NCBI GenBank assembly: GCA_029858285.1
Contig: JAOUFN010000001.1
Span: 1 to 64,000 of the forward strand
Length of the DNA: 64,000 nucleotides
Direction: 5' to 3'
Origin: Nitrospirota bacterium
GTDB taxonomy: Bacteria > Nitrospirota > JACRHL01
The notes below the pieces were generated by a model. It saw only the letters and a list, made by a program, of their open reading frames with translations, did no database searches and was not told the origin of the DNA. How positions within the stretch are numbered: position 1 is the first letter of the stretch; the number at the start of each line of letters is the position of its first letter. The position numbers and the translations under genes were made by a program. Below, one piece after another: positions 22,442 to 61,461 of this stretch.

Positions 22442-22867
22442 CTACGGGGCCAGTCGTTGCAGCGGGAGACCGGAGGTGGGGGTGACCAGAGCCACGGCGC
22501 GGCCCATGACGGTGCGCCAGGTCTCCTCGGTATGCGCGTCCAGCATCGGGTCGCAGGCGCGCACGGTTTCGATCAGCGCCTCCAGCCATTCCGAAAAATA
22601 GTGGGGCGGAATGTCCATTTCCACCGGTCCGTGGCGGTGCTGGATGCGGGCCAGCAGGTCGGCCGCCGCGGGAGAACCGGCGGCCTCCATCAGCGAAGTG
22701 GTGATGGCCTTGCGCAGGAAGGCGTGCAGCATGGCCTCATCGGCCCCCTCGAAGTATTTGCCCACCTGCGGCAGACGCCGCGTCAGGCGCTGGAAAAACG
22801 TGCCGTAGAAGGCATGGTTGGCCAGGCAGCGGCGAAAACTGTCGGTGATGGTGGTCAGGTCGGACAC
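22442..22867 (-). CDS. Single-domain bacterial globin
   Basis: A 141-aa protein with globin pattern: SFRRCLANHAFYGTFFQRL, LPQVGKYFEG, AMLHAFLRKAITTSLM, then a proximal-histidine region IQHRHGPVEMDIPPHYFSEW and a terminal ETWRTVMGRAV helix. Such proteins bind haem and may sense or detoxify O2 or NO. Length matches a single globin domain with no fused output. The promoter-side gap to 23015 holds no gene. Confidence 0.82.
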   Translation of the reverse strand: MSDLTTITDSFRRCLANHAFYGTFFQRLTRRLPQVGKYFEGADEAMLHAFLRKAITTSLMEAAGSPAAADLLARIQHRHGPVEMDIPPHYFSEWLEALIETVRACDPMLDAHTEETWRTVMGRAVALVTPTSGLPLQRLAP

Positions 22868-23015: not shown

Positions 23016-25559
23016 TTACGCAGGCCGCCGCAGGCGCGGCAGGGCCACCGCCACCACCTCGTCAAAATGCTCCACCGGATGGAAGGTGAGCCCTTTCACC
23101 ATGTAGCCGGGCAGCTCCAGCAGGTCGCGCTGGTTGTCGGCGGGAAGGATGACGTGGCGCAGCCCGTGGCGGCGCGCGGCGATGATTTTTTCGCGAATTC
23201 CCCCCACCGCCAGCACGCGGCCGGTGAGGGTGAGCTCGCCGGTCATGCACACCCGGGGGGCCAGGGGTTTGCCGCTGGCCAGGGACAGCAGGGCACAGGC
23301 CATGGTGACGCCCGCGGAGGGGCCGTCCTTGGGGGTGGCACCGGCGGGAACGTGCAGGTGCACCTGGTGATTGGCAAAATAGTCGTCGGCGATGCCGAAA
23401 TCGGCGGCGCGGCTGGCGATGTAGCTGTGGGCGATGGCGGTGGACTCGGCCATTACGCCCCCCAGTTGTCCGGTGTGGCGGAAGCCGTTTTTTTTGCCGG
23501 CGATCGCCAGCGCCTCCACCTCCAGCACGGCGCCCCCCAGGCTGGTCCACGCCAGCCCCACGGCAAGGCCCGGACGGCGCTGGCGCGACAGTTCCGTCTC
23601 CCGGTGGCGGGGCTCCCCCAGCAGCGGTTTGAGATCCTCCACGGTGGCAATGCGCGCCGGCTCGAAGGTTTCGGGGTCGGTGGCCAGGCGCGTGGCCACC
23701 TTGCGGCAGACGCGGGCGATCTCCTGCTCCAGTTTGCGCACACCGGCCTCCCGCGCCCAGCCACGGGCCAGGGCGCGCAGGGCGGTGGTGGTCATGGACA
23801 GGTCACGCACCTTGAGGCCGTGTTCGGCGCGCTGGCGCGGCAAAAGGTACTGGCGGGCAATGGCGAGCTTTTCCTGCTCCACATAGCCCGGCAGGCGGAT
23901 CATTTCCATGCGGTCCAGCAGGGCGCGGGGCACGCCGTCCACGGTGTTGGCGGTGGCCACGAAGAACACCCGTGAAAGATCGCAGCGCACGTCCAGGTAG
24001 TGGTCCAGAAACTGGTTGTTCTGTTCCGGATCGAGCACCTCGAGCAGAGCCGACGACGGGTCGCCGTGATAGGTGGACGACAGCTTGTCGATTTCGTCCA
24101 GCATGATCACCGGGTTGGCGGTGCCGACCCGGCTCAGGGCCTGCACGATCTTGCCCGGCATGGCGCCCACATAGGTGCGGCGGTGGCCCTTGATCTCGGC
24201 CTCGTCGCGCATGCCGCCGAGGGAAAAGCGGTAAAAATGCCGCCCCATGGCCCGGGCGATGCTGCGCCCGATGCTGGTCTTGCCCACTCCCGGCGGCCCC
24301 ACCAGGCACAGGATGGAGCCGCGCATGCCGCCCGGCTTCAGGCGGTGGACGGCCAGGTATTCGACGATGCGCTCCTTGACGTCCTCCAGACCGTAGTGAT
24401 CGGCGTCCAGGATGGCGCGGGCGCGCTTTAAATCCACCGCCTCGGCGTCATACACCCCCCAGGGCAGGCGGGTGAGCCAGTCCAGGTAGTTGCGGGTGAC
24501 GTTGAACTCGGGGCTGGCAGGTTCGATCAGTTCCAGCTTTTCCATCTCGGCATCGATGACACCGCGCACGTCGTCCGGGCAGGTGAGGGCCTGAATGCGC
24601 TCGGCCATGCGGGAGATTTCGATGGTGCGCGGGTCCGCCGCGATACCCAGTTCCTTCTTGATGGTCTTGAGCTGCTCCTTGAGGAAGAACTCGTGTTGCT
24701 GGCGGTTGACCTTTTCTTCGATGCGGCGGTGGATCTCGCGCTGCAATCCGACCAGTTCCAGCTCTTCCTTGACCAGCAGGAGGGCTTTTTCCAGCCGCGC
24801 CCGAACGTCGAATTCGTCGAGGATTTCCTGCATCCGTTCACGGCTGGCACTGGTGAGGGCCACAGCCATGTCGGCCATGCGACCCGCGTCCTCCAGCGGC
24901 ACCGGCGGGTTGAACACGGCGGCGCTGCCTGCGAACAGGGGACTTTTTTTCACCAGCCGCCGCAGGTCGGTCATCAGCGCCATGGCGAGGGCGCGGGTTT
25001 CCTGATCGCCCAGGTCGATGCGGTCCTCCGGGTAACTGACCTCGGCCAGCAGGTAGGGTTTCACCTGGATGATCCGTTCCACCACAAAGCGGTGGCTGCC
25101 CTTGAGCAGCAGGTTGAGGTCGGATTCGGCGCCCGCCCGGGCGATGGCGTCGCGCAGGCGGTTGAGGGAGCCGGGGGGAGACTCCGGGGTTTCGGCCCCA
25201 TCCTCACCCGAGTCGTCCTCGTCTTCCTCTTCGTCACCCAGCCAGCGCACCACACGGGCGCACAGGCCAACGCGGTGGATTTCTGACAAGAGGGTGATTT
25301 CCTCTGACGCCGGATCGAGGATCTGCACCACCCCAAGCAGGGCGCCGTACTCCTCCACCGCGGCCCGCGCCGCTGGCCGGTCGGTGACGGAAAACGGCGC
25401 CATCGCCTGCGGAAACAGGGGGCGGCCGTTGTTGGGCAGCAGGATCAGGCGGGCCGGACGTTCCCGGTCCACACGTTCCGGGGGGGGCGAAACGGGGTGC
25501 GGCACGGCATGTGCATCAGGTGTTTCCAGGGCCGGGTCGGAGGGGGGGCTGGTGGTCAT
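23016..25559 (-). CDS. lon: ATP-dependent protease Lon
   Basis: An 847-aa AAA+ serine protease. Order: N-terminal LON domain (ILLPNNGRPLFPQAMAPFSV), a coiled-coil region, the ATPase with Walker A GPPGVGKT, Walker B IMLDEIDK and sensor regions, then the protease domain with Ser748 in KDGPSAGVT and Lys791 in GGIREKIIA, 43 residues apart as in E. coli. The N-domain carries an unusual acidic insert (EEEDEDDSGEDG). ATG 25559 is used; a TTG at 25577 would add six residues. Neither has a clear ribosome site. No clp or hupB neighbour. Confidence 0.95.
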   Translation of the reverse strand: MTTSPPSDPALETPDAHAVPHPVSPPPERVDRERPARLILLPNNGRPLFPQAMAPFSVTDRPAARAAVEEYGALLGVVQILDPASEEITLLSEIHRVGLCARVVRWLGDEEEDEDDSGEDGAETPESPPGSLNRLRDAIARAGAESDLNLLLKGSHRFVVERIIQVKPYLLAEVSYPEDRIDLGDQETRALAMALMTDLRRLVKKSPLFAGSAAVFNPPVPLEDAGRMADMAVALTSASRERMQEILDEFDVRARLEKALLLVKEELELVGLQREIHRRIEEKVNRQQHEFFLKEQLKTIKKELGIAADPRTIEISRMAERIQALTCPDDVRGVIDAEMEKLELIEPASPEFNVTRNYLDWLTRLPWGVYDAEAVDLKRARAILDADHYGLEDVKERIVEYLAVHRLKPGGMRGSILCLVGPPGVGKTSIGRSIARAMGRHFYRFSLGGMRDEAEIKGHRRTYVGAMPGKIVQALSRVGTANPVIMLDEIDKLSSTYHGDPSSALLEVLDPEQNNQFLDHYLDVRCDLSRVFFVATANTVDGVPRALLDRMEMIRLPGYVEQEKLAIARQYLLPRQRAEHGLKVRDLSMTTTALRALARGWAREAGVRKLEQEIARVCRKVATRLATDPETFEPARIATVEDLKPLLGEPRHRETELSRQRRPGLAVGLAWTSLGGAVLEVEALAIAGKKNGFRHTGQLGGVMAESTAIAHSYIASRAADFGIADDYFANHQVHLHVPAGATPKDGPSAGVTMACALLSLASGKPLAPRVCMTGELTLTGRVLAVGGIREKIIAARRHGLRHVILPADNQRDLLELPGYMVKGLTFHPVEHFDEVVAVALPRLRRPA

Positions 25560-25567
25560 CGGGGTCA

Positions 25568-25579
25568 GATTGCGCAATC
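25568..25579. promoter_or_regulatory. Perfect 12-bp palindrome at the lon start
   Basis: GATTGCGCAATC lies just upstream of the lon ATG, over the alternative TTG. It could be an operator or block the ribosome site in mRNA. Chance occurrence is possible. Confidence 0.3.
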
Positions 25580-26162: not shown

Positions 26163-26261
26163 TTTGGGCGAGTCTCAGGTTGTGTGGGGTGTCTGCCGGT
26201 GTGCTGTCGCCGGGGTGGCGGTGCGTCCGGCGTGGTGTTTTTTTTGAGGAAGGAATGCGTC

Positions 26262-27713
<1,452 letters not shown>

Positions 27714-27769
27714 CGAGCGCGCTTCTTTGCTTCTTTTTCCCCCGCCCTGTCGGGGGAACAGGCACGGAC

Positions 27770-27802
27770 GGCCACCGGGGAAAAAACCTTTTTCCGGTGG
27801 CC
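27770..27802. terminator. Hairpin after the NtrC-type regulator
   Basis: GGCCACCGG at 27770-27778 pairs with CCGGTGGCC at 27794-27802, with an inner A/T-rich stem. It precedes a stronger terminator by 80 bases. Confidence 0.5.
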
Positions 27803-27881
27803 GTCGCCGTTTTGTCCGCGCCGTCAGGTTGCCGCCGTGTGGCGTCGCCCGATTGACGCAAAATCTCCCTTCATCTGATTC

Positions 27882-27992: not shown

Positions 27993-28009
27993 TTTGCACG
28001 GAGTTTGCA
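27993..28009 (+). promoter_or_regulatory. Sigma-54-type promoter of the FliF-tail/fliG pair
   Basis: TTTGCACGGAGTTTGCA fits the sigma-54 consensus with TG instead of GG at -25/-24, ten bases, then GC at -13/-12. It sits 23 bases before the FliF-tail gene, immediately after the terminator. The lost G lowers confidence. Confidence 0.5.
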
Positions 28010-28031: not shown

Positions 28032-28538
28032 ATGCAACCGACACAGCACACCATAACGAAAACCAATCCGCCCCGATCTTTTCGCCTGCCGCGCCGAACC
28101 AGCCGCCGGGGCAGCCGGAACGGGTTGATCGACGTGGTGCTGCGGCCAAAAGCCGTCGGCGCCAGGTACGGCACGATACTGGCGGCCCTGGCATGGACGG
28201 GCACGGCGTGGGCCGGCCCCCCCCTTCCGCTCATGGCGGTGTGGATGGGGGGGGCGGGGTCCACGGTTTTTGCGCTGCTGGCCGCTGCGGTGGCCGGTGC
28301 ACTGGCGGCGGCACTGGTTCTGTGGTGGCGGGAAAAGCCGGGTGGCGTGTCCCGGATGCCGGACCATCCGGCGGGCCCGGCTGCGGCAACTTCGCGGGCT
28401 TCGACGGCGGCTCCGGCTGGAATCACTGCGGCCAACCCCCGGCCGGTGGCGGCCGTGGAGCGGTTGTGCCGGGAGCACCCCGCACGGGCGGCGGTGTTGT
28501 TGCGCCAGTGGATGCGCGGCGGAATGCGGGACGCGTGA
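28032..28538 (+). CDS. Membrane anchor with FliF C-terminal FliG-binding tail
   Basis: A 168-aa protein. A basic N-terminus (PRRTSRRGSR) leads to two hydrophobic stretches (about 45-62 and 64-98, the second ending LVLWWR), a proline/alanine linker, and a C-terminal helix VERLCREHPARAAVLLRQWM. This end closely resembles the FliG-binding end of FliF (E. coli DPRVVALVIRQWM). The ring-building periplasmic domains of FliF (normally over 500 aa in total) are absent. GGTGA lies five bases before ATG 28032. Its TGA overlaps the GTG of fliG, so the two are coupled. It may be a minimal FliF or a different FliG anchor. Confidence 0.7.
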   Translation: MQPTQHTITKTNPPRSFRLPRRTSRRGSRNGLIDVVLRPKAVGARYGTILAALAWTGTAWAGPPLPLMAVWMGGAGSTVFALLAAAVAGALAAALVLWWREKPGGVSRMPDHPAGPAAATSRASTAAPAGITAANPRPVAAVERLCREHPARAAVLLRQWMRGGMRDA

Positions 28539-29587
28539 GCGGCGTGGCCGTGCAGGATTCTTCCCGGCCCCAAACCCCGCCGCTGCCGTCCCTCACCGGG
28601 GCGGAAAAGGCCGCGCTGCTGCTGTGGGCGGTGGGGGAGGAGGCGTCCGGGGCGGTGTTGCGCCACATGTCGTCCACCGAGGTGCGCGAACTGGCCGCCT
28701 GCATGGCGCGGCTGGAAGGGGCGCCCACGGCGTGGGCGGATGCGATCCTGAACGATTTTATCAACCTGGCGCGGGACCTGGGAGAGGAATCTCCCCCTGC
28801 CGGAGAATCGGACCTGCTGCGGCGCACGCTGGCCAGCGCGCTGGGGGACGATGTGGCGGCGCGGGTGATGGCGGAGATCGGCTCCGGCCCCGGTCCGTTC
28901 GCCACACTGGAGGGGGCGGATGCGGTGGCGATCGCCGAACTGCTGGAGCACGAACACCCGCAGACGGTGGCCTTGAGTCTGGCCCATATGGAGCCGTCCC
29001 TGGCGTCGCGGGTGTTGCCGTTTTTGCCCGAGGAACTGGCCGCTCATGCGGTGCTGCGTCTGGCCGATCTCAAGCCGGTGGCGGCGGAAATGCGCACCCT
29101 GCTGGGCGAGGTGCTGGGGGAACAACTGGTGTCCTGGCGCGAAAGCCACGGCGCCGCCGCCGGGGGTGGCCGCTGCGCCGCCCGCATGCTGGGCGGCATG
29201 GACCGGGACGCGGCGGACGACCTGCTCGACCGGGTGGCCCAGTCCGGCCCCACGGTCGCGGACCGCATCCGCCAGCACCGTTTCGAGTTCGAGGATCTGG
29301 CGCGGCTGGAGGATCGCTCCCTGCAGGAGTTGCTGCGCGCCGTGAGCCGCGAGATACTGGGCCTGGCCCTGACCGGCACGGCGACCGGGGTGCGGGAACG
29401 GTTTTTTGCCAACCTGTCGGAACGCGCCGCCGCGGTGCTGCGCGAGGAGATGGAGCGCTGCATCGCCGCCCGCCCCGGCGCGGTGCAGGCGGCCCGCGGC
29501 GAGGTGTTGCAGGCAGCCTGGCGGCTGGCGGCCCAGGGGCGCATCCACGTGGAGGCGCTGGGCCCGTCCAAGGGGGGCGGTCAGTAG
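28535..29587 (+). CDS. fliG: Flagellar motor switch protein FliG
   Basis: A 350-aa FliG. N-domain: LTGAEKAALLLWAVGEEAS and HMSSTEVRELAACM. Middle domain: the EHPQT motif in LLEHEHPQTVALSLAHM. C-domain: FEFEDLARLEDRSLQELLRAV and the torque helix NLSERAAAVLREEMERC, where the conserved arginine is kept and the two acidic residues are Glu-Glu rather than Asp-Asp. Full length and apparently functional. It starts at GTG 28535 overlapping the anchor gene's stop. A 342-base gap with a sigma-54 promoter follows. Confidence 0.92.
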   Translation: MSGVAVQDSSRPQTPPLPSLTGAEKAALLLWAVGEEASGAVLRHMSSTEVRELAACMARLEGAPTAWADAILNDFINLARDLGEESPPAGESDLLRRTLASALGDDVAARVMAEIGSGPGPFATLEGADAVAIAELLEHEHPQTVALSLAHMEPSLASRVLPFLPEELAAHAVLRLADLKPVAAEMRTLLGEVLGEQLVSWRESHGAAAGGGRCAARMLGGMDRDAADDLLDRVAQSGPTVADRIRQHRFEFEDLARLEDRSLQELLRAVSREILGLALTGTATGVRERFFANLSERAAAVLREEMERCIAARPGAVQAARGEVLQAAWRLAAQGRIHVEALGPSKGGGQ

Positions 29588-29862: not shown

Positions 29863-29879
29863 TTGGCACCGGTGTTGCA
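29863..29879 (+). promoter_or_regulatory. Sigma-54 promoter of the motA-like/fliM/fliN/fliO operon
   Basis: TTGGCACCGGTGTTGCA is a near-perfect sigma-54 element (GG at 29865-29866, ten bases, GC at 29877-29878). Transcription would start near 29890, 40 bases before the next gene. The rest of the 29588-29929 gap shows no gene. Confidence 0.88.
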
Positions 29880-29929: not shown

Positions 29930-30742
29930 ATGGATTTTGCAACCCTGATCGCACTGGCCGTGGCGCTTGCGGCCACCGGATTTGCCTCCCACGTCTGGGG
30001 TGGGGCGGGGGGCGGACTGTCTCCGGCGCTGGCGGCGGTCCTGCTGGTCATCGGGGGGAGTTTTTCCGCCTTGCTGGTGCATTTTTCGCTGCCGGCGCTG
30101 GCGGCATTGCCACGCCACCTGAGGCGCACCCTGAGAGAGCGCCCGGAGGTGGCGGCCATGCAGCGGGTGGCGGGCCTTGCCGGGCTGGCGGAACGGGCGC
30201 GCCGCTCCGGCGTGCTTTCTCTGGCCGAGGAGGCGGGGCGCATCGAAGACGGTTTTTTCCGCCGCTGCGTGGAGATGGTGGTGGATGGCGGGCACGCCGA
30301 CGAGATCGGCCGGGTGATGGGGCGCGAACTGTCCCTGGCGGAGGCCGATCCCCGGCAGGCGACGCGAATGTTGCGCTGGGCTGCCGCCTATGCCGCCCTG
30401 TTTGGTGCGTTCGGCACGTTGCTGGCGTTGCCGGGCGTGCCGGGTGCCGCCCTGGCGACGGCTGACCGTGGCGCGGCCGTTTCGGCCTTTTGGCCACTGC
30501 TGTGCGGCGCGGCGCTGGTGCCCACGCTGCTGGCGGCGGCGGGCCGGGTGGCGGAATCGACCGGTGCCGAGGCGGTGCTGCGCGCCCTGACCGTGGAGGG
30601 TATTGTGGGCATTGCCGGAGGCGAGCACCCCGCCGTGCTGCGGCGGCGGCTGGCCGCCTTTGCGGCTCCGGGGGCGGTGAATGCCGGGGGTGAGGTGGCC
30701 GATATGGAGCGCTGGCGCCAGCGTCGGGGCGGGGGAAGCTGA
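29930..30742 (+). CDS. MotA/PomA-like stator protein, divergent
   Basis: A 270-aa membrane protein aligned by eye with PomA: start MDFATLIAL, GGSFSALLVHF, the cytoplasmic ERARRSGVLSLAEEAG block with the charged Arg91/Arg92 and Glu100 of the FliG interface, FFRRCVEMVVDG, then helices 3 and 4. The conserved proline of helix 3 (APAxG in PomA) is Ala156 in YAALFGAFGTLL, and that of helix 4 (FFPIADKL) is alanine near 203. Threonine in the GTL motif is kept. No motB follows; fliM starts within its stop (TGATG). Proton or sodium conduction is therefore doubtful. Confidence 0.75.
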   Translation: MDFATLIALAVALAATGFASHVWGGAGGGLSPALAAVLLVIGGSFSALLVHFSLPALAALPRHLRRTLRERPEVAAMQRVAGLAGLAERARRSGVLSLAEEAGRIEDGFFRRCVEMVVDGGHADEIGRVMGRELSLAEADPRQATRMLRWAAAYAALFGAFGTLLALPGVPGAALATADRGAAVSAFWPLLCGAALVPTLLAAAGRVAESTGAEAVLRALTVEGIVGIAGGEHPAVLRRRLAAFAAPGAVNAGGEVADMERWRQRRGGGS

Positions 30743-31728
30743 TGGAGCGGGTACTTTCCCAGGAGGAAGTCAACGCCCTGTTGACCACGGCCCCCGGCTC
30801 CGCTGCGGAGCCGACGCCGGGGCCGGACGGCATTACCACCTGCGACCTGACCGGTCAGGCCGGTTCCCGCTGGCCGCGCCTGCCGGGGCTCTCTGCGGTG
30901 TGCGGGCGCTTTGCGCGGGGCATCGAGGATTCCCTGTCGCGGTGGATTCAGGAGGTTCCGGCGGTCCATCCCGAGATGGTGCGCTGCGAGCGTTTCCAGT
31001 CGTTCGTGGACTCCCTGCCGGTGCCCAGCAGCTTTACCGTATTCAATCTGGCGCCCCTGCCCGGCGAGGGGGTGCTGGTGCTGGAGGCCGAGGCCGTGGT
31101 GCATCTGGTGGGGCGCCTGTTCGGTGGCGGCGCGCAAACCCACGTCAAGGTGCCGGGGCGCGATTTTTCCCCCGTCGAACGGCGTTTGATCGCCCTGCTG
31201 GCGGGACGTTTTCTGTGCGACCTCGGGGCCGCCTGGCGGGATATTACGCCCATGGACTGCAAGCCACTGGGCATGGAGGTGCATCCGGGGCTGGCGGCCA
31301 TCGCGGCGCCTTCGGACATGGTGGTGTGCTGCCCGCTGAGCGTGGAACTGGACACCGACACGGTGCGCCTGTACGCCGTTTTTCCGCGCGCCTCCCTGGA
31401 CCCCCTGCGCGGTCGCCTGCAACTGGACCCCGCCCATGCGCTGGCGGCGGACCCGGTGTGGCGCGGGCGCCTGCTCAATGGGGCGTTGCAGGCCCCGGTG
31501 CGGACCTGGGTGGACCTGGGGGAGACCGAAATGTCCCTTGGGCGGGTGCGGGACTGGCGGCCCGGTGAGGTGCTCATGCTCGGCCAGTCTGCCCACCGGC
31601 CCCTGTCGCTGGTGGTGGAATCCGTGCCGCGCTTCAGCGGCATGCCGCGGGAGCGGGACGGTCACCTGGTGCTGGAAATTGTGGGGGCAGGCGGGGAACG
31701 CGACGTGCTCGCGGGAGGGGGAAGCTGA
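30742..31728 (+). CDS. fliM: Flagellar motor switch protein FliM
   Basis: A 328-aa FliM. The N-terminus MERVLSQEEVNALL is the CheY-P binding motif, so the switch should answer a chemotaxis-type signal. The middle domain (SFTVFNLAPLPGEGVLVLEAEAVVHLVGRLFGGG) and the C-terminal SpoA/FliN-like domain (APVRTWVDLGETEMSLGRV, RPGEVLML) are present. ATG overlaps the MotA-like stop, and its own TGA overlaps the fliN ATG, as in a tightly coupled operon. Confidence 0.92.
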   Translation: MERVLSQEEVNALLTTAPGSAAEPTPGPDGITTCDLTGQAGSRWPRLPGLSAVCGRFARGIEDSLSRWIQEVPAVHPEMVRCERFQSFVDSLPVPSSFTVFNLAPLPGEGVLVLEAEAVVHLVGRLFGGGAQTHVKVPGRDFSPVERRLIALLAGRFLCDLGAAWRDITPMDCKPLGMEVHPGLAAIAAPSDMVVCCPLSVELDTDTVRLYAVFPRASLDPLRGRLQLDPAHALAADPVWRGRLLNGALQAPVRTWVDLGETEMSLGRVRDWRPGEVLMLGQSAHRPLSLVVESVPRFSGMPRERDGHLVLEIVGAGGERDVLAGGGS

Positions 31729-32150
31729 TGACCCGGCGCGACCATAAATCCGTTCCCGGCGAAGCCGCGCCGACCGTGGACGTCGCCGGGGGACCGGTGG
31801 GTGACACCCGGCCCCGCAGCAAGTCGAAGGCCGCGCCGGTGCGTTTTACCGATCTTCACGGGCAACCCGCCACGGGCGACCCGAGGGACGTGTCGTTCCT
31901 GTATGACATTCCGGTGCAGGTTTCCGTGCGGCTGGGGGGCGCGCGCCTGCTGCTGCGCGATCTGCTCGGACTGGGGCCCGGTTCGGTGGTGGAACTGGAC
32001 CGCATGGCCGGCGAACCCCTGGAGGTTCTGGTAAACGGCAGACTGCTGGCGCGTGGCGAGGCGGTGGTGGTCAACGGCAAATTTGGCGTGCGGCTCACCG
32101 AACTGGTGGACACGGTGGAAGACGGCGTGTCCCCGATTGCCAAAGAGTGA
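31728..32150 (+). CDS. fliN: Flagellar motor switch protein FliN
   Basis: A 140-aa FliN. A polar, variable N-terminal 55 residues, then the SpoA domain: FLYDIPVQVSVRLGGARLLLRDLLGLGPGSVVELDRM (seen in parts), EPLEVLVNGRLLARGEAVVVNGKFGVRLTEL. It would form the base of the C-ring with FliM. Start ATG 31728 overlaps the fliM stop (TGATG). Length is typical. Confidence 0.93.
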   Translation: MTRRDHKSVPGEAAPTVDVAGGPVGDTRPRSKSKAAPVRFTDLHGQPATGDPRDVSFLYDIPVQVSVRLGGARLLLRDLLGLGPGSVVELDRMAGEPLEVLVNGRLLARGEAVVVNGKFGVRLTELVDTVEDGVSPIAKE

Positions 32151-32177: not shown

Positions 32178-33266
32178 ATGATGGGTAAGGCAAGTTCATG
32201 GGTGATGATGGTCGTTCTGGGGGCGTGGCTCCCGGCGGCGAATGCACTGGCGGCGGCGGATTCCGACGGCTATGTGGCCGCAGGGGGGGCGGCCCCGGTG
32301 GCGCAGCGGCTGGTGATGGCGGGCTTTGCGGTGCAGGAGGTGGGGGGTGCCCTGGGCATTGACCTGCCCATGCTCCAGGCGTCGGGATGGCTGCCGGAAT
32401 CCCAACCGGGGTCGCAACTGGAGTTTCTGGATCATGCCATCCAACTGACCCTGCATCCGGTCACGCTGACCCCCGGCAAGCAGTATCAAGCGGTCAATCA
32501 CCCCCTCTTTTCCCACATTTTCGCCTACCAGTACAGCCCCGATACCGTGCGCGTGCGCCTGCTCACGCGTCAATTTGACGGCAGCCGACTGGAAGGGGCG
32601 GTGACCGTGGCGCGGACCCCCACCGGCCTGCGGCTGGTGGTGGGCGCACCGTTGGCGGACGCGACGCCGCAGGGGGTTTCCAACCCGGTTGCGGAAGCGG
32701 ACGGCCCGGCCCGGCGGTTGCCGGATGAACTGACCACCGGGAACCCCGCCGGTCAGGTGGCCGCCGATGGCCCCCTGATGCCCGAAGACATGATTCAGGT
32801 GGGGGTGGCGCTGCTGGGGATGGTGGTCCTGCTGTGGCTGGGTGGACTGGTGCGGCGGCGATTGGTGGCCTATTGGTCTTCACCCCGTGGCCACCTGAGC
32901 CTGATCAGCCGGGTGGAGGTGGGCGAAGGGCAGCACGTTGCCCTTCTGGAGGCGGACGGTCGCCGTCTGGTGGTGGCGCTGGAGGCGGACGGCATGCGCC
33001 TGATCGCCGACCTGGGGGAGGTTGTGACCCCCGGTGACGACGCGCCGCAGGCGGAAGGCGTGCTGGCCGAGGCCTTTGCCGATGAAATGGCCGGGGAACA
33101 GGCGGAAAATTTGGCCGACGACTGGCCGGTCCTGCCGTCCGATGCGGCGCCACTTTACCTTTGTCCGGTGCCGGTACCCCACTTCGGTTTTGCCGACGAA
33201 CCCCGCGCGGCGTACCCGGAGAACACCGCGCCGCAGCACGAAAACCGCTGGCTGGCCGCCTCCTGA
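32178..33266 (+). CDS. fliO: FliO-like membrane protein with large N-terminal periplasmic region
   Basis: A 362-aa protein. A signal peptide (WVMMVVLGAWLPAANALA) precedes about 180 periplasmic residues rich in beta-type sequence. A membrane helix follows (IQVGVALLGMVVLLWLGGLV) and then a FliO-type cytoplasmic domain: LSLISRVEVGEGQHVALLEADGRRLVVAL with DLGE. Canonical FliO is much shorter (about 100-200 aa); the periplasmic extension and the long acidic tail after 290 are unusual. FliPQR are not next to it; pabB follows. FliO normally helps FliP assemble. Confidence 0.75.
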   Translation: MMGKASSWVMMVVLGAWLPAANALAAADSDGYVAAGGAAPVAQRLVMAGFAVQEVGGALGIDLPMLQASGWLPESQPGSQLEFLDHAIQLTLHPVTLTPGKQYQAVNHPLFSHIFAYQYSPDTVRVRLLTRQFDGSRLEGAVTVARTPTGLRLVVGAPLADATPQGVSNPVAEADGPARRLPDELTTGNPAGQVAADGPLMPEDMIQVGVALLGMVVLLWLGGLVRRRLVAYWSSPRGHLSLISRVEVGEGQHVALLEADGRRLVVALEADGMRLIADLGEVVTPGDDAPQAEGVLAEAFADEMAGEQAENLADDWPVLPSDAAPLYLCPVPVPHFGFADEPRAAYPENTAPQHENRWLAAS

Positions 33267-33442: not shown

Positions 33443-34990
33443 GTGAGTGACTGTTTGCAGAACGCGGTCTGGACACCGAGTCGCGAAGCTTTTTTGGCCC
33501 CTGGTTCCACCTGGGCCATGGGGGCGTGGGTGCCCTTGCAGGGGCGTCAGCCGCAGCTTCTGCTGGAGCGTTTTTGCCCCATGCGGCAACCGTTCCTGCT
33601 GGAGACGGCGCGCCTGCCGTTGGGAGGGGCGGGGTACAGTTTTCTGGGCGGCGATCCGGTGCTGACCGTGCGCGCCACCCCCGCCGGGGTACAGATTGAC
33701 CGCCCCGGACGGGCCACCGAGGTTTCCCCTGACGGCCCCCTGCGCACCCTGCGCACCCTGCTGGCCGATTGGCACACTCCGCGTCCGGCCGGTTTTCCGC
33801 CGTTCTTCGCGGGTGCCTGCGGGGTGGTTTCCTACGATTTTTCCCGGCGACTGGAGCGCTTGCCGGAGATCGCCGCAGACGACCTGTCGCTGCCGGACAT
33901 GGATCTGTCTTTTTATGACCTAGTGGTGGGGGTGGATCACGCGGCGGAGCGGCTGTGGGTGACCTGGGTGCCGGAACCCGGGATGCGCCGGAAGCTCGGC
34001 CGCGAGGTGCTCTACAGCGTGGGTTTGGGGCGCATCGGCGCGGCCCTGTCCTGGCTGCGCGACGCCCCCCCGGAGCGTTCTGCGGCACCCGGCCACGTCG
34101 GCCCCTTTACGGCCGAAACCGGGCGCGCCGAATACACCGCCATGGTGCGCACGGCACAGGAACTCATCGCACGGGGCGATATCTTTCAGGCCAATCTGTC
34201 CCAACGCTTTCACGCCCCGGTGTCGGGCGTGGATGCCTGGCATCTGTACGGCGTGCTGTCCGAGGTCAACCCGGCGCCCTTTGCCTGTTATCTGGACCGG
34301 GGGGATTATCAGGTGGTCAGTTCCTCTCCGGAACGGCTGGCGTCCTTGCGGGAGGGGCGGGTGGAGGCGCGCCCCATCGCCGGAACCCGGCCACGCGGCG
34401 CCGATTCCGCCGGGGACGTGGCCAACGGCGCGGAGTTGCTGTCCAGCCCCAAGGAGCAGGCCGAGCATGTGATGCTGGTGGACCTGACCCGCAACGACCT
34501 GGGGCGGGTGTGCGACTACGGCAGCGTGCGGGTGACCGAATTCATGAGCATGGAACGCTATTCCCACGTCATTCACATCGTCTCCAACGTGGCCGGTGAC
34601 CTGGGGCCGGGACAGGATGCGGTATCGGTGCTGCGGGCGGTGTTTCCCGGCGGCACCATCACCGGCGCGCCCAAGGTGCGCTGCATGGAGATCATCGAGG
34701 AACTGGAACCGGTGCGCCGGGGAGTTTATACCGGCTCGGCGGGGTATCTGTCGGCGGGCGGCGAGATGGATTTGAACATTCTCATCCGCACCGTGCTGCT
34801 CAAGGACGGTGTGGCATTTTTTCAGGCGGGCGCCGGGATTGTGGCGGATTCCAGTCCGGAGGCGGAATACAAGGAGACCCTGCACAAGGCCGAGGCCATG
34901 CGCCGCGCCCTGGAGCGGGCGGGCGGCGGGGGTGAGGTCGCGGCCGTGGCGTCCGGGGCGCCTCCGGCCCCCATGGGGCTGACCGCATGA
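33443..34990 (+). CDS. pabB: Aminodeoxychorismate synthase component I (PabB)
   Basis: A chorismate-binding enzyme of about 515 aa that makes 4-amino-4-deoxychorismate for folate. Conserved blocks: ARGDIFQANLSQRF, RPIAGTRPRGAD, SPKEQAEHVMLVDLTRNDLG, FPGGTITGAPKVRCMEII and GYLSAGGEMDLNILIRT. The PIAGT form (alanine where E. coli PabB has lysine) is shared with TrpE, but the overlapping class-IV aminotransferase argues for PabB. The start is uncertain: GTG 33443 or ATG 33518, neither with a clear ribosome site. The stop overlaps the next ATG (ATGA). Confidence 0.85.
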   Translation: MSDCLQNAVWTPSREAFLAPGSTWAMGAWVPLQGRQPQLLLERFCPMRQPFLLETARLPLGGAGYSFLGGDPVLTVRATPAGVQIDRPGRATEVSPDGPLRTLRTLLADWHTPRPAGFPPFFAGACGVVSYDFSRRLERLPEIAADDLSLPDMDLSFYDLVVGVDHAAERLWVTWVPEPGMRRKLGREVLYSVGLGRIGAALSWLRDAPPERSAAPGHVGPFTAETGRAEYTAMVRTAQELIARGDIFQANLSQRFHAPVSGVDAWHLYGVLSEVNPAPFACYLDRGDYQVVSSSPERLASLREGRVEARPIAGTRPRGADSAGDVANGAELLSSPKEQAEHVMLVDLTRNDLGRVCDYGSVRVTEFMSMERYSHVIHIVSNVAGDLGPGQDAVSVLRAVFPGGTITGAPKVRCMEIIEELEPVRRGVYTGSAGYLSAGGEMDLNILIRTVLLKDGVAFFQAGAGIVADSSPEAEYKETLHKAEAMRRALERAGGGGEVAAVASGAPPAPMGLTA

Positions 34991-39509: not shown

Positions 39510-40700
39510 TTATGTCCCGGGTACCCGGTGCTGGACGGCCATGCGTCGTTCCACGGACTCCTCGATGATCAGGTCCGGGTGGAAGGCGGCGATCATCTGG
39601 TCCACCAGTTCCGGATCAAAGCGGCTCCAGACATAAGCCGCCTGGCGGAAGTTTTCTGACAAAAAAGGCATCAGGCGGGTGCCAAAGGAATCGCGCAGCA
39701 CCAGCACCCGCAGGGGGGGGGCAATGGGGCATTCGGTGGCCAGGGGCGGACGGCCGGGCTTGTTCCACTCTTCCGGAAGCACCGTTGGGAACGGGATGGG
39801 CACCGCGCAGTGGCCGCCGTGGGGTGACAGTCGGGGCTCCCGCTCGGCAAAGCGCCCCTTCAGGCCGCCCATGTCCACCAGTTCGAACGCCTTTTCTTCG
39901 GACCATGCCAGGTCAAAATCGGTGAACGGGTGCGGGGCAATCCGGGGAAAGTCGGACTGGAGGCGCAGCAGGATTTCCCGATATCCCACATAGGCCCCCA
40001 CATCGGTCCAGTGGGTGCCGGTTCTTTCGTACAGCGGTGCGGGAAAGGCTGTTTTGCTGCGTGCCAGCGCTTCATCCAGGTTGAGCAGGGGAAGGTGGCT
40101 GCCGTCCGGCGTGTTTGCCAGATAGGTGGTCAGTTGCACCATGCGTCGGGGACGGTGGCCCTGGCCGGGGGGGGGAAAGGAGGCGTCCGCCGGATGTTCC
40201 GGCAGATGTTCCGAATAGACCGACTGCTTGTCCGGCACCGACACGAACAGATAGTGGATGCCCCGGCGATGCAGCCAGTCGCGGCGTTTTGCCAGTTCGT
40301 CCCGCCAGATGGACAGTTCCAGCCCGGTCCACGGGTTGAGGCCGCGCTGGTCGCGAACCACGTCGTCCTCGGCGTAGAACAGCCAGCCATCGGTGCCCAC
40401 CAGCACGCGGCTGTCGGAGGGCAGACGCAGCAGGCTGAAACGGACGTAGGAGTAAAAGCGGATAAAGGTGTTACGCAGTCCAAAATGGTCGGCATACCAG
40501 GTGTCGAACGCCTTGGGGAAGGCGTTTATCTCTGCCAGCGAGTGCGGTACCCCGGGAGCGCTGGCGAGGGTGCGGTTTTCGTCCATTCCCACGCTCTCCG
40601 TGGGGGTAAGCAGGGTGGCCACGGGGGGGGTGAAAACCAGCAGGCAGAACAGGCCCACCAGGATGCGCATCCGCAGCGGTGTGTGGTGTTCCTCGGCCAT
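39510..40700 (-). CDS. AlgJ/AlgX-like O-acetyltransferase (SGNH-type)
   Basis: A 396-aa protein with an N-terminal signal-anchor (MRILVGLFCLLVFTPPVATLL). The catalytic-domain blocks of AlgJ/AlgX are seen: DTWYADHFGLRNTFIRFYSY, GTDGWLFYAEDDVV, the histidine in RTGTHWTDVGAY and the serine in LVLRDSFGTRL. It would place acetyl groups on a secreted polysaccharide with the MBOAT partner just upstream (5-base gap). The polymer is unknown; no alginate synthase genes are in the window. Confidence 0.88.
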   Translation of the reverse strand: MAEEHHTPLRMRILVGLFCLLVFTPPVATLLTPTESVGMDENRTLASAPGVPHSLAEINAFPKAFDTWYADHFGLRNTFIRFYSYVRFSLLRLPSDSRVLVGTDGWLFYAEDDVVRDQRGLNPWTGLELSIWRDELAKRRDWLHRRGIHYLFVSVPDKQSVYSEHLPEHPADASFPPPGQGHRPRRMVQLTTYLANTPDGSHLPLLNLDEALARSKTAFPAPLYERTGTHWTDVGAYVGYREILLRLQSDFPRIAPHPFTDFDLAWSEEKAFELVDMGGLKGRFAEREPRLSPHGGHCAVPIPFPTVLPEEWNKPGRPPLATECPIAPPLRVLVLRDSFGTRLMPFLSENFRQAAYVWSRFDPELVDQMIAAFHPDLIIEESVERRMAVQHRVPGT

Positions 40701-40705
40701 CCCCG

Positions 40706-42154
40706 TCAGAAGCGGAAATACAGAAAGGGGTTAAAGGTTCCGGCGGCCACGCTGGCGGCCGACAGCAACAGCAGCACCAGAAGAGTGGCGGTGCCGGTGG
40801 CCGACAGCAGTCCGCGCAGTGTTCTCATTCGGCTCTGTGCCGTCCAGTGACTGTTGAGTGTCTGGTAGCGTTCCCGCAGGAACGGCAGCAGGGGCGTGAC
40901 AAACAGGATGCCGAACAGCAGGGACCAGCGCACGTCGTTGCTCAGGTAGGTGGCGGGAAAGTGGAGCGGAGTTGCACCAAGGCCGAACATGGCTTTCAGG
41001 TAGCCGATGGCGTCGGGTAATTTTTCTACGCGGAAAAATACCCAGGCGATCATCACCATCAGCAGCACGTAGGCGTGTTGCAGGGGCTGCCACAGGCGAT
41101 CGATCCACGCGCCAAAACGCCCGCGCTCCACCACCAGAAGGGCGCCGTGCAGCAGCCCCCAGATGACGAAGTTCCAACTCGCCCCGTGCCACAGCCCGCA
41201 CAGGAAAAACACCAGAAGCAAATTGAAATGGGTGCGCGCCGGGCTTAGCCGGTTGCCCCCCAGGGGGATATAAAGGTAGTCGCGGAACCAGGTGGACAGG
41301 GATATGTGCCAACGGCGCCAGAACTCGCGGACACTGCGGGAGATGTACGGGTAGTTGAAATTTTCCGGGAAGGAGAAGCCGAACATGCGTCCCAGGCCGA
41401 TGGCCATGTCGGAGTAACCGGAAAAATCGAAATAGATTTGCAATGTGTAACAGGCGACCCCCAGCCACGCCAGGGCCGGATGGACCTGGGCGGCGGGCAG
41501 GGAAAAAATCTGGTCCGCCACCTGCCCCAACGGGTTGGCGACCAGCATCTTTTTGGCCAGGCCAAAGGTGAATCGTTCGATCCCCCGGGCGAAGTCCGCC
41601 AGCTTCACGCTGCGCTCCACGATCTGCCGGGCCACGTCGTGGTAACGCACGATGGGGCCTGCGATCAATTGCGGGAACAGGGCGATATACAGCGCGACGT
41701 GCAGCGGGTTGCGACTGGCCGGGGTTTCGCCCCGGTACACGTCCACAATGTAGGTGATGGCCTGAAAGGTGAAAAAGGAGATGCCGATGGGCAGGTGCAC
41801 CGGGGCCAGCTCCAGGCGGGAAAAACCCGCCGCCCCCAGCAGGGTGTTGGCATTGTCGGCCAGAAAATTGGCGTACTTGCAGGACGCCAGCAAGGCCAGG
41901 TTGATGGCTACCCCCACCCCCAGCCACCGCCGCCCGACGCGCTGTTGCCGGTGCCGGTCCACCGCCAGGCCGAACAGGTAATTGGCGGTGATGGAGGCGA
42001 GCATCACCAGCAGATAAAAACCCTCGCCCCAGGCATAGAACAGCAGGCTGGCGGACAGGAGCAGGGCATTGCGCCACGAGCGGGGGCCACCGAAATAAGC
42101 CGCCAGCAGCACGGGCAGGAACAGAAATAGAAATACGGGGGAGCTGAAAACCAT
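40706..42154 (-). CDS. MBOAT-family O-acyltransferase (AlgI-like)
   Basis: A 482-aa multi-span membrane protein of the membrane-bound O-acyltransferase family that moves acetyl groups across the membrane for exopolysaccharide acetylation. Motifs: GISFFTFQAITYIVDVYRG, FDFSGYSDMAIGLGRMFG, FWRRWHISLSTWFRDYLYIP, and the catalytic histidine in LWHGASWNFVIWGLLHG. Start at ATG 42154 fits the usual MVFSSPVFLFLFLP N-terminus; a 9-residue longer frame begins at 42181. Paired with the AlgJ-like gene. Confidence 0.93.
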   Translation of the reverse strand: MVFSSPVFLFLFLPVLLAAYFGGPRSWRNALLLSASLLFYAWGEGFYLLVMLASITANYLFGLAVDRHRQQRVGRRWLGVGVAINLALLASCKYANFLADNANTLLGAAGFSRLELAPVHLPIGISFFTFQAITYIVDVYRGETPASRNPLHVALYIALFPQLIAGPIVRYHDVARQIVERSVKLADFARGIERFTFGLAKKMLVANPLGQVADQIFSLPAAQVHPALAWLGVACYTLQIYFDFSGYSDMAIGLGRMFGFSFPENFNYPYISRSVREFWRRWHISLSTWFRDYLYIPLGGNRLSPARTHFNLLLVFFLCGLWHGASWNFVIWGLLHGALLVVERGRFGAWIDRLWQPLQHAYVLLMVMIAWVFFRVEKLPDAIGYLKAMFGLGATPLHFPATYLSNDVRWSLLFGILFVTPLLPFLRERYQTLNSHWTAQSRMRTLRGLLSATGTATLLVLLLLSAASVAAGTFNPFLYFRF

Positions 42155-42233
42155 CGGTTCCGGGGCGGTTAGGGGCAGCACGCTGCGGGCCCGATTGGGG
42201 GCCGGCCCGGATTATATCCGTGTCCCGGCAAAC

Positions 42234-57419: not shown

Positions 57420-59300
57420 ATGGTGTCGGCAAAAACCGTTACATCCCTGATCCAGCAGGGGGCCGAATTTCAGGCCCGGGGTGATTTTGCGGCGGCCGGG
57501 GGCTGTTATCGCAAGGCATTGAAGGCCGCTCCCGATCATCCGCAGGCGCTGTGGATGCTGGGGATGCTGGAATTGGGGATGGGGCGGGTCGATTCTGGCG
57601 CCCGACATATGGAGCGTTTGTTGCGGCTGCAACCCCAATCGACGCATTCCCACTGCGGCATGGCCCAGGTGCGTGTGGCGCAGGGGCGGATGGCCGAAGC
57701 CAGGGCGGGTTATCAGCGGGCCGTGTCGCTGGATGGCGCAAACCTGCCGGCCCTGGTTGGCCTGGGGGCGCTGCTGGCGCAGGAGGGGGACCTGGAGGGC
57801 GCTGAAGCCACGCTGCGCCGGGCGGTGGCGGTGGACCCCAGGGCGCCGGAGGTGCGGATTCAGCTGGGCCGAGTGCTGTACCGAACGGGCCGCATGGATG
57901 CCGCCAGGGTCGAGTGCGAGGCGGCGGTGGCGTTGGCCCCCAACCGTCCCGAACTGGTGCGGGTGCTGGCCGAATTTTATCTGGACATGCGGTTGTGGGA
58001 GGAGGCGGCGCAGGCGGGCGGTCACTGGGCCAGGCTGGATCCGGAAAATGCCCGGCCCCACGCGCTGGTGGGAACAGCCCTCCTGAGTCTGCAAAAAGTA
58101 GCGGGCGCTGACGCCGCCTTCGACCAGGCGCTCAGTCGGGATCCGGGCGAGGTCTCGGCACGGGCCGGAAAATGCGGCGTCCTGCGCATGCGGGGGGACA
58201 TGGGGGCGGCCTGTCAGATGATTGAACCGCTGCTTGCGGACGCGGAATGCCCGCCCGGAATCGTGGTGGCCTATGCCGGAATCGCGGAGGGTGTGGGTCG
58301 ACTGGACGATGCCCTGGCCCGTATCGAGAAAATGCTCGCGGGTTATCGTTTGAGCCCGGCGGACCGGAGAAACCTGCATTTCGCCGCCGGAGAATTGCTG
58401 GACAAGAAAAAAGATTATGACCGGGCCTTCCGGCACTACCATGAGGGTAATCAGGCCTCTCAAAGCGCTTTCGACCCGGATATTTTCCGGCAGTTCGTGG
58501 ATCGCCAGATTGCGGTGTTCGGTTCGGAAAATTTGGGGGGCCTGGCCCGCGCCCGCAATCGCATCAAGCGTCCGGTACTGATCGTGGGCATGCCGCGCTC
58601 GGGTACCTCGCTGGTGGAGCAGATTCTTGCCAGTCACCCACTGGTGCACGGGGCGGGAGAACTGGAGCACCTCCCGAGGATTGCCACGGTCCATTTGCAA
58701 GCCGGCCTGTCATCCGGTCCACCCTATCCGGAGTGCGTGCGGGATTTATCCTGCGACGATCTGGACCGGCTGGCGCGGGAATACGATGCGGACCTTGCCC
58801 GGATGGGCGGGGATGCCTTGCGGGTGACCGATAAAAATCCACTGAACTTCCTGCACCTGGGGCTTGTCCAGCGGATGTTGCCCCATGTGCGGGTCATCCA
58901 TTGTCGGCGCAATCCGGTAGACACCTGTCTGTCCAATTATTTCCAGGATTTCGCCAGTCTGGGTTTGGCATATTCCACCGACCTGTCGCATTTGGGGTTT
59001 TTCTACCGTCAGTACGAGCGCTTGATGGCCCACTGGCGGGAGGTGCTGGACCTGGAGATGCTGGAGTTGGACTACGAGGAGATGGTGGCTGATCAGGAGG
59101 GTGCCAGCCGCAAGCTGGTGTCGTTTGTCGGCTTGGAATGGGACGAAGCCTGTCTGCAGTTCCACAAGACCAGGCGTACGGTATCCACCGCCAGCGCCAC
59201 CCAGGTGCGCCAGCCGATGTACAAGGGATCGGTGGAACGGTGGCGGCGCTACGAAAAACACCTGGGGCCGTTGCTGGAGGCGCTGGGCATCCGGCACTGA
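57420..59300 (+). CDS. TPR-sulfotransferase, copy 1
   Basis: A 626-aa protein: about nine TPR-type repeats in residues 1-330 and a C-terminal sulfotransferase domain with the PAPS 5'-phosphosulfate loop RPVLIVGMPRSGTSLVEQIL and the 3'-phosphate site RVIHCRRNPVDTCLSNYFQ. It should sulfate a protein or glycan chosen by the TPR part. ATG 57420 is one base from GGAGG, too close; the GTG at 57423 may be the real start. It shares 417 bp with copy 2 (one mismatch). Confidence 0.9.
   Translation: MVSAKTVTSLIQQGAEFQARGDFAAAGGCYRKALKAAPDHPQALWMLGMLELGMGRVDSGARHMERLLRLQPQSTHSHCGMAQVRVAQGRMAEARAGYQRAVSLDGANLPALVGLGALLAQEGDLEGAEATLRRAVAVDPRAPEVRIQLGRVLYRTGRMDAARVECEAAVALAPNRPELVRVLAEFYLDMRLWEEAAQAGGHWARLDPENARPHALVGTALLSLQKVAGADAAFDQALSRDPGEVSARAGKCGVLRMRGDMGAACQMIEPLLADAECPPGIVVAYAGIAEGVGRLDDALARIEKMLAGYRLSPADRRNLHFAAGELLDKKKDYDRAFRHYHEGNQASQSAFDPDIFRQFVDRQIAVFGSENLGGLARARNRIKRPVLIVGMPRSGTSLVEQILASHPLVHGAGELEHLPRIATVHLQAGLSSGPPYPECVRDLSCDDLDRLAREYDADLARMGGDALRVTDKNPLNFLHLGLVQRMLPHVRVIHCRRNPVDTCLSNYFQDFASLGLAYSTDLSHLGFFYRQYERLMAHWREVLDLEMLELDYEEMVADQEGASRKLVSFVGLEWDEACLQFHKTRRTVSTASATQVRQPMYKGSVERWRRYEKHLGPLLEALGIRH
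57443..57859. repeat. Near-identical 417-bp segment shared with 59447-59863
   Basis: Offset of 2,004 bases; only one difference was found by reading (G at 57534, A at 59538; Asp versus Asn). Both copies then diverge sharply at 57860/59864. This is the N-terminal TPR-coding part. Confidence 0.92.
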
Positions 59301-59423
59301 TCCCTCTGCCCGGATTGGGCGTTGCCAGGACGTTGGCTATACTGTCCAAATATTGTTCATCGATATTGTTCATCGAGCCGGGGCCCGCCCCCCCGTGTGT
59401 GGTTGTCGAGGAGGCCCAAACGA

Positions 59424-61301: not shown

Positions 61302-61461
61302 TGTCTTGTGGGTGGGGGGGGGCCGTTCCGGGACCGGTCGGATACTTTTTGGTTGCTGGCTATATATACTGGTTCCTCGCGGGCTTCGTTGCGGTCCTTG
61401 CCGCCCGGGTGCGCTTGTGTCCCGGAGTGTGTTTGTCTGTGTTGTTGAGGTGATCCGGAAA

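Follow-up and report, generated by a model that had tools for sequence, protein, structure and literature searches.

A reduced flagellar locus joining a short reading frame with a FliF-like tail to fliG, fliM, fliN and a degenerate motA in a Nitrospirota genome

A compact locus, found within the analysed stretch of 64,000 nucleotides (the window), keeps genes for the flagellar switch proteins FliG, FliM and FliN together with a MotA derivative, a FliO-like protein and, directly before fliG, a short reading frame, named TailF, whose predicted product ends in a FliF-like tail. The reading somewhat favoured here is that of a non-rotating, membrane-tethered switch ring, kept as a signalling or landmark hub; the retention of a switch ring after the loss of the flagellum suggests a job other than swimming. 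The initial annotation, centred on TailF and fliG, overlooked that MotA, FliM, FliN and FliO are kept, that the export apparatus, rod/hook and MotB are gone, that the channel is degenerate and that sigma-54-type sites are present, all of which makes the case stronger.

Organization and origin of the locus

The features of the locus and its outer neighbours are reported below, in the order of their position in the window.

23016-25577, minus strand: Lon protease, outer neighbour, 64% identical to the Lon of the family member G001 and in synteny with L045; it adjoins the regulator in G001 too
26232-27713, plus strand: sigma-54 response regulator (receiver, AAA+ and HTH_8 domains, by Pfam), possible regulator of the locus
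27767-27805, plus strand: terminator-like hairpin between regulator and TailF (17 pairs; from a pattern scan, a pattern match only)
27994-28009, plus strand: sigma-54-type site with one mismatch, TTGCACGGAGTTTGCA, 22 nt before the TailF ATG
28032-28538, plus strand: TailF, predicted short membrane protein with a FliF tail, 168 aa, start codon uncertain
28263-28322, plus strand: strong transmembrane segment of TailF (residues ~78-97, by hydropathy; helix 76-101 in the structural model)
28431-28517, plus strand: predicted FliF-like, FliG-binding tail of TailF (residues 134-162; 15.5 bits with a FliF-tail HMM)
28535-29587, plus strand: fliG, with all three domains (Pfam, invariant residues, tree)
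29864-29879, plus strand: perfect sigma-54-type site, TGGCACCGGTGTTGCA, 50 nt before motA
29930-30742, plus strand: MotA derivative, with degenerate channel helices and the cytoplasmic loop kept (NCBIfam/Pfam, regional identities)
30742-31728, plus strand: fliM, its start overlapping the motA stop (Pfam, alignment)
31728-32150, plus strand: fliN, its start overlapping the fliM stop (Pfam, and NCBIfam fliN above cut-off)
32178-33266, plus strand: FliO-like protein with an extra N-terminal region (Pfam FliO, 23.3 bits with a cut-off of 22)
33518-34990, plus strand: pabB, outer neighbour, 62% identical to the pabB of G001 and syntenic

The locus was compared with those of two members of the same family, G001 and G002, where gene names were assigned by sequence resemblance and order, with domain matches for FliF, FliG, FliM, MotB and hook. 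Contig 19 of G001 carries Lon, a sigma-54 regulator, flgB, flgC, fliE, fliF, fliG, fliH, fliI and fliJ, in this order, and contig 23 carries flgD, flgE, motA, two motB-like genes, fliL, fliM, fliN, fliO, fliP, pabB, pabC and a glycosyltransferase gene. The order in the window is Lon, regulator, TailF, fliG, motA, fliM, fliN, fliO, pabB, pabC, a sulfatase-type gene and a glycosyltransferase gene; fliP, placed by G001 between fliO and pabB, is missing from the syntenic place. The regulator shares 77% identity with its G001 counterpart, which adjoins the flgB-fliG operon; this is more than Lon shares with the Lon of G001. The FliO-like protein is 42% identical to G001 FliO over 172 aa. This synteny shows that the window locus consists of two ancestral flagellar loci joined, with selective deletions. 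As read from gene order, its origin lies in two loci which are intact in G001, and the deletions joining them spared only the FliF tail, fliG, motA, fliM, fliN and fliO, besides the outer neighbours. A tblastn search of the gaps of the locus revealed no debris of the deleted genes above noise.

The proposal of a C-ring on a new base, made in the initial annotation, does not hold, since the locus derives, by reduction, from flagellar loci that belong to the family itself. In the FliG tree the genome of the window, G000, is sister to the flagellated relatives G001 and G002, with a support of 99/97. Its branch is long (2.2, against 0.085 and 0.28) and its exact position needs caution, yet it is the place that taxonomy predicts. 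Horizontal acquisition of FliG, considered as a candidate origin, is unsupported by this tree, long branch included.

The sigma-54-type pattern TGGCACNNNNNTTGCA was searched throughout the 64-kb window, allowing at most one mismatch. Only the two sites listed above were detected, both on the coding strand, one before each unit. Two matches are the number that chance gives; the probability of falling within 100 nt upstream of either unit is about 0.0016 per site, computed post hoc. Their placement is not expected by chance and the sites, which are pattern matches, are regarded as putative promoters. A sigma-54-type site also precedes motA in the relatives, by 114 nt in G001 and 63 nt in G002, and flgB of G001 is preceded by a site with two mismatches.

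Elsewhere in the window, the stretch 57420-63342 encodes three paralogues in a row, which share 61-77% identity and combine TPR repeats at the N-terminus with a sulfotransferase domain at the C-terminus. AlgX-like and MBOAT genes, a pair typical of polysaccharide O-acetylation, lie side by side on the minus strand at 39510-42181, and a 141-aa protein encoded at 22442-22867 has a globin match below threshold (17.9 bits, cut-off 22).

Flagellar genes in the genome and in the phylum

The flagellar absences reported here rest on genome-wide searches of G000 (2.56 Mb in 57 contigs, 99.5% complete) for FliF, FlhA, MotB_plug and Flg_bb_rod. A full-length fliF, which the initial annotation suggested looking for, was found nowhere in the genome by a search for YscJ_FliF (PF01514): no MS-ring protein is encoded on which a C-ring could assemble. 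Similarly, there was no match in G000 to FHIPEP/FlhA (PF00771), of the type III export core, nor any, at E up to 0.1, to MotB_plug (PF13677) or to Flg_bb_rod (PF00460), of rod and hook. The same searches detected all four families in G001. In G002, which is fragmented and has a contig ending inside fliF, they detected three, FliF being the exception. In the third member of the family, G003, none of the four is above cut-offs, and FliG and FliM were not found.

FliG and FliM are found once each in G000, and a scan of genome contigs, using FliG as query, returned only four distant loci. A second switch complex beside a normal flagellum, as envisaged in the initial annotation, is ruled out by these single copies, together with the absence of FliF and FlhA.

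The arrangement was searched for in a phylum sample of 346 genomes with a completeness of at least 90%. FliG_N was detected in 214 genomes and FlhA in 207, while eight genomes contain FliG_N in the absence of FlhA. Six of the seven such genomes other than G000 have a full fliF just before fliG, and are probably incomplete. One genome, G327, was discarded as another case, its weak FliG_N match being unconfirmed by protein search. The TailF-fliG arrangement has been found in one genome so far, within a collection that represents roughly half of all GTDB species and in which the genus has no further member. In G008 (98% complete, 230 contigs) FliF, FliG and FliM were detected but no FlhA, which its congener G017 has; this missing FlhA is probably an assembly gap.

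Such gaps occur, as the six genomes with a full fliF beside fliG indicate, and the 57 contigs of G000 leave room for them. Nevertheless, it is scarcely credible that a normal flagellum is encoded, with fliF, flhA and other genes lying in assembly gaps and the window locus being an extra or rearranged copy: the locus is flanked by syntenic sequence on both sides within a 230-kb contig, fliP is not at the place where synteny would put it, a genome 99.5% complete lacks four flagellar families, FliG and FliM are single, and the degeneration of the MotA channel lies in the sequence itself, for which a gap offers no explanation. The position in the interior of this contig (229,909 bp), with synteny to a relative on both sides, also rules out an assembly break as the origin of TailF; the initial annotation had named a 3' fragment of fliF, produced by assembly error, as the case against its proposal.

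G000 also carries a cluster formed by flhG, fliA, cheY, cheV, cheA, cheB, cheR, a receptor gene and cheW (L079:6020-15808, contig 16), named by sequence resemblance, synteny with G001 and a CheW search. The same flhG-fliA-cheY-cheV-cheA-cheB-cheR-mcp-cheW cluster is present in G003 (L083:3395-13136, contig 103), though FliG and FliM were not found there, so that the retention of che genes and flhG does not require a switch complex. CheY is 97.5% identical between G000 and G003, and by most proteins of the cluster G003 is closer than G001 to G000. In G003, at least, CheY probably acts on something other than the flagellum, and the conservation of CheY, taken by itself, is no proof of an action on FliM in G000. 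PilM, a type IV pilus protein, occurs in each of the four genomes of the family.

TailF, sequence constraint and the MotA derivative

TailF is, as initially annotated, an open reading frame of 168 aa whose stop overlaps the start of fliG: the TGA at 28536-28538 and the GTG start at 28535 produce a 4-nt overlap. The predicted product ends in ...VERLCREHPARAAVLLRQWMRGGMRDA. A FliF-tail HMM was built from 28 tails of phylum relatives, leaving TailF out. TailF scored 15.5 bits, while unrelated ORFs of the window did not exceed 6.6 and the best of 2000 shuffles reached 6.8; the resemblance of the predicted tail to FliF is above chance, and the FliF-like C-terminus described in the initial annotation is thus confirmed. 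By using a 115-aa model of the FliF C-terminus, the match proved to be limited to residues 134-162, again with 15.5 bits (8.6 for the next unrelated ORF), and no homology to FliF was recognisable outside them. When G001 FliF is used as a tblastn query, its C-terminus aligns to 28437-28517, at an E-value of only 0.034. Searches with TailF against Pfam and NCBIfam, and by phmmer, gave no match of note, and a PDB search with the 35-aa tail gave nothing meaningful, the query being too short.

Two hydrophobic segments had been described in TailF. That at residues ~78-97 is strong, with a mean hydropathy of 2.64 over 19 residues, equalled by two of 180 chunks from non-coding frames, while that at residues ~41-60 is weak, at most 0.9. 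The strong segment has no detectable sequence homology to the C-terminal transmembrane helix which precedes the tail in FliF. A single-sequence AlphaFold model of low confidence (mean pLDDT 54), to be taken as a hint only, contains helices at 39-59 and 76-101, followed by a disordered linker and by two tail helices, 137-148 and 150-167, with a break between them. At 168 aa, at most, TailF carries no YscJ_FliF periplasmic ring-building domain. A minimal anchor recruiting FliG to the membrane, the role assigned in the initial annotation, is the natural reading.

The chief doubt about TailF is its poor codon signal over the whole ORF. The value per codon is -0.05, versus 0.30-0.46 for fliG, motA, fliM, fliN and fliO, and all short genes called in the genome sample have a higher one; neither the translation of the whole ORF nor its start codon is therefore certain. 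This signal, together with homology confined to the last 30 residues, would suit a functional FliG, FliM and FliN assembly, either soluble or otherwise anchored, in which TailF is no working anchor, only its end being translated as a leader for coupling into fliG, or none of it. Such an explanation is improbable, as the tail is conserved as protein sequence, at 15.5 bits, which is needless for a leader, the same frame encodes, ahead of the tail, a strong transmembrane segment, and FliG_N, the known partner of the FliF tail, is kept.

The domain families of FliG, FliM and FliN are all above the Pfam cut-offs (for FliG, FliG_N scores 87 bits, FliG_M 70 and FliG_C 114). FliG keeps 22 of 26 invariant residues, EHPQ included, and its agreement with the consensus decreases from 79% in columns at least 95% conserved to 53% in those conserved at 75-95%, 41% at 50-75% and 22% below. 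The ORFs of fliG, motA, fliM, fliN and fliO are all intact at 58-70% nucleotide identity. In a rough neutral simulation, with half of the nucleotide divergence assigned to the G000 lineage, the runs free of stops, out of 300, were 9 for fliG, 24 for motA, 6 for fliM and 153 for fliN, jointly about 2e-5. In addition, the folded domains of FliN in G000 and G001 share 74% identity, and the N-terminal LSQEEVNALL motif of FliM is present. The genes left at the locus look selected. The constraint nevertheless appears weaker than in flagellated relatives: FliG identity is 38% to the window protein versus 75% between G001 and G002, with housekeeping neighbours at 50-77% between G000 and G001. By branch length FliG evolved 8 to 25 times faster than in these relatives, which also fits relaxed constraint.

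The pattern observed in MotA, with the channel lost and the loop largely kept, is the most telling part of the case. TM3-4, the best conserved part of the protein between G001 and G002 (90%), is the worst conserved in comparisons with the window protein (24-27%), and the identity of the cytoplasmic loop goes from 51% to only 38-40%. At the positions of E. coli P173, P222 and T209, which have channel or torque roles (PMC6677748), the window protein has A, A and L. Invariant residues are lost at 23 of 34 channel positions and 3 of 13 loop positions (p = 0.009, for regions picked after viewing the alignment), and overall 37 of 76 are lost; four hydrophobic segments and the GTL motif of TM3 are kept. 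Given the lost channel residues and the failure to find a MotB, the window MotA is, as far as its sequence tells, most likely no longer an ion channel. In G001 (L061:4280-5586) and G002 (L063:3466-4796) two MotB-like genes, side by side, come after motA, and the plug match is in the second.

The four segments and the GTL motif, and the fact that B subunits can diverge strongly, might be taken to mean that the complex still rotates, the ring being driven by the MotA derivative paired with a B subunit that escaped recognition, for example in gliding or pilus-related movement. This is very improbable, in view of the P173A, P222A and T209L replacements, by which channel and torque residues are lost, of the lack of MotB_plug matches in G000 at E up to 0.1, and of TM3-4 being the least conserved part of MotA.

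The main rival explanation, and a serious one although unlikely, is slow decay, in which the genes would be remnants en route to full loss, as in G003, with no present function, and TailF the last stretch of a fliF pseudogene. The long FliG branch, the poor codon signal of TailF, the invariants lost by MotA and the failure to find FliG, FliM, FliF and FlhA in G003 all agree with it. The gene-by-gene pattern argues against: five long ORFs are intact in spite of their divergence, the conservation of FliG is graded, tight gene overlaps are retained, sigma-54-type sites stand before both units, and the gaps are free of debris.

Possible role and comparison with known systems

In the favoured reading the lineage lost its flagellum, and deletions took away the genes for export, rod, hook and the MotB-like proteins, along with most of the periplasmic part of FliF. 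The remaining set comprises a short putative membrane anchor with a FliF tail, FliG, FliM, FliN, the MotA derivative and the FliO-like protein. By analogy with the established FliF-FliG structure, the tail of TailF would fold into FliG_N, holding FliG, FliM and FliN at the inner membrane as a ring or patch, with FliM and FliN presumably assembling on FliG as usual. The MotA derivative, non-conducting, may still touch FliG_C and so constitute a second membrane tether. The static platform thus formed might respond to CheY and/or FlhG, or be read by the sigma-54 regulator; type IV pili, or a sigma-54 programme under the adjacent regulator, are speculative outputs. The joint retention of the FliF tail and FliG_N, and that of CheY, FlhG, FliA and the FliM motif, were counted as support for a retained complex. 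The fully specified version, a flagellum-free, non-rotary complex in which FliF, cut to anchor and tail, tethers FliG-FliM-FliN, MotA has turned into a structural tether of FliG, and the whole is a membrane hub controlled by CheY or FlhG for some other output, is possible, and is held with slightly more doubt than belief.

No comparable stand-alone C-ring was found in literature searches. The locus resembles the flagellar C-ring in its three-domain FliG, FliM and FliN, in the MotA-type neighbour and in the FliF-type tail directly before FliG, as well as in its descent from the family's own flagellar loci; it differs from it in that no MS-ring domain, export apparatus, rod/hook or MotB was found, the MotA channel is degenerate and the anchor is at most 168 aa long. 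If confirmed, it would show what portion of the flagellar motor is able to exist by itself, and would supply a minimal FliF-FliG anchor from nature with which C-rings could be built in the laboratory.

FlgSR, a sigma-54 checkpoint regulator system which reads the FliF-FliG ring (PMC7064773), is a precedent for the readout by a sigma-54 regulator considered above. Here too a sigma-54 response regulator adjoins the locus, and sigma-54-type sites, as pattern matches, precede both units; unlike in FlgSR, there is no export core for a checkpoint. In Lysobacter (PMC9927559), similarly a non-flagellated relative of flagellated bacteria with part of the flagellar genes, fliG, fliM, motA and motB are lost and the export system is described as still functional. 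The selection observed here is the reverse: the rotor genes survive and export does not.

The passages of a 2025 survey dealing with rotor proteins (PMC12199754) report at least one of them in 11% of non-motile species, and suggest an alternative function. FliG, FliM and FliN kept without a flagellum are a similar case, which differs in that the genes stand together as a syntenic block that also includes a FliF-tail anchor of its own and a degenerate MotA, a unit not described in those passages. The locus is a clean and compact case of filament-free rotor proteins, whose losses and retentions point to a sub-assembly apart from export and rotation.
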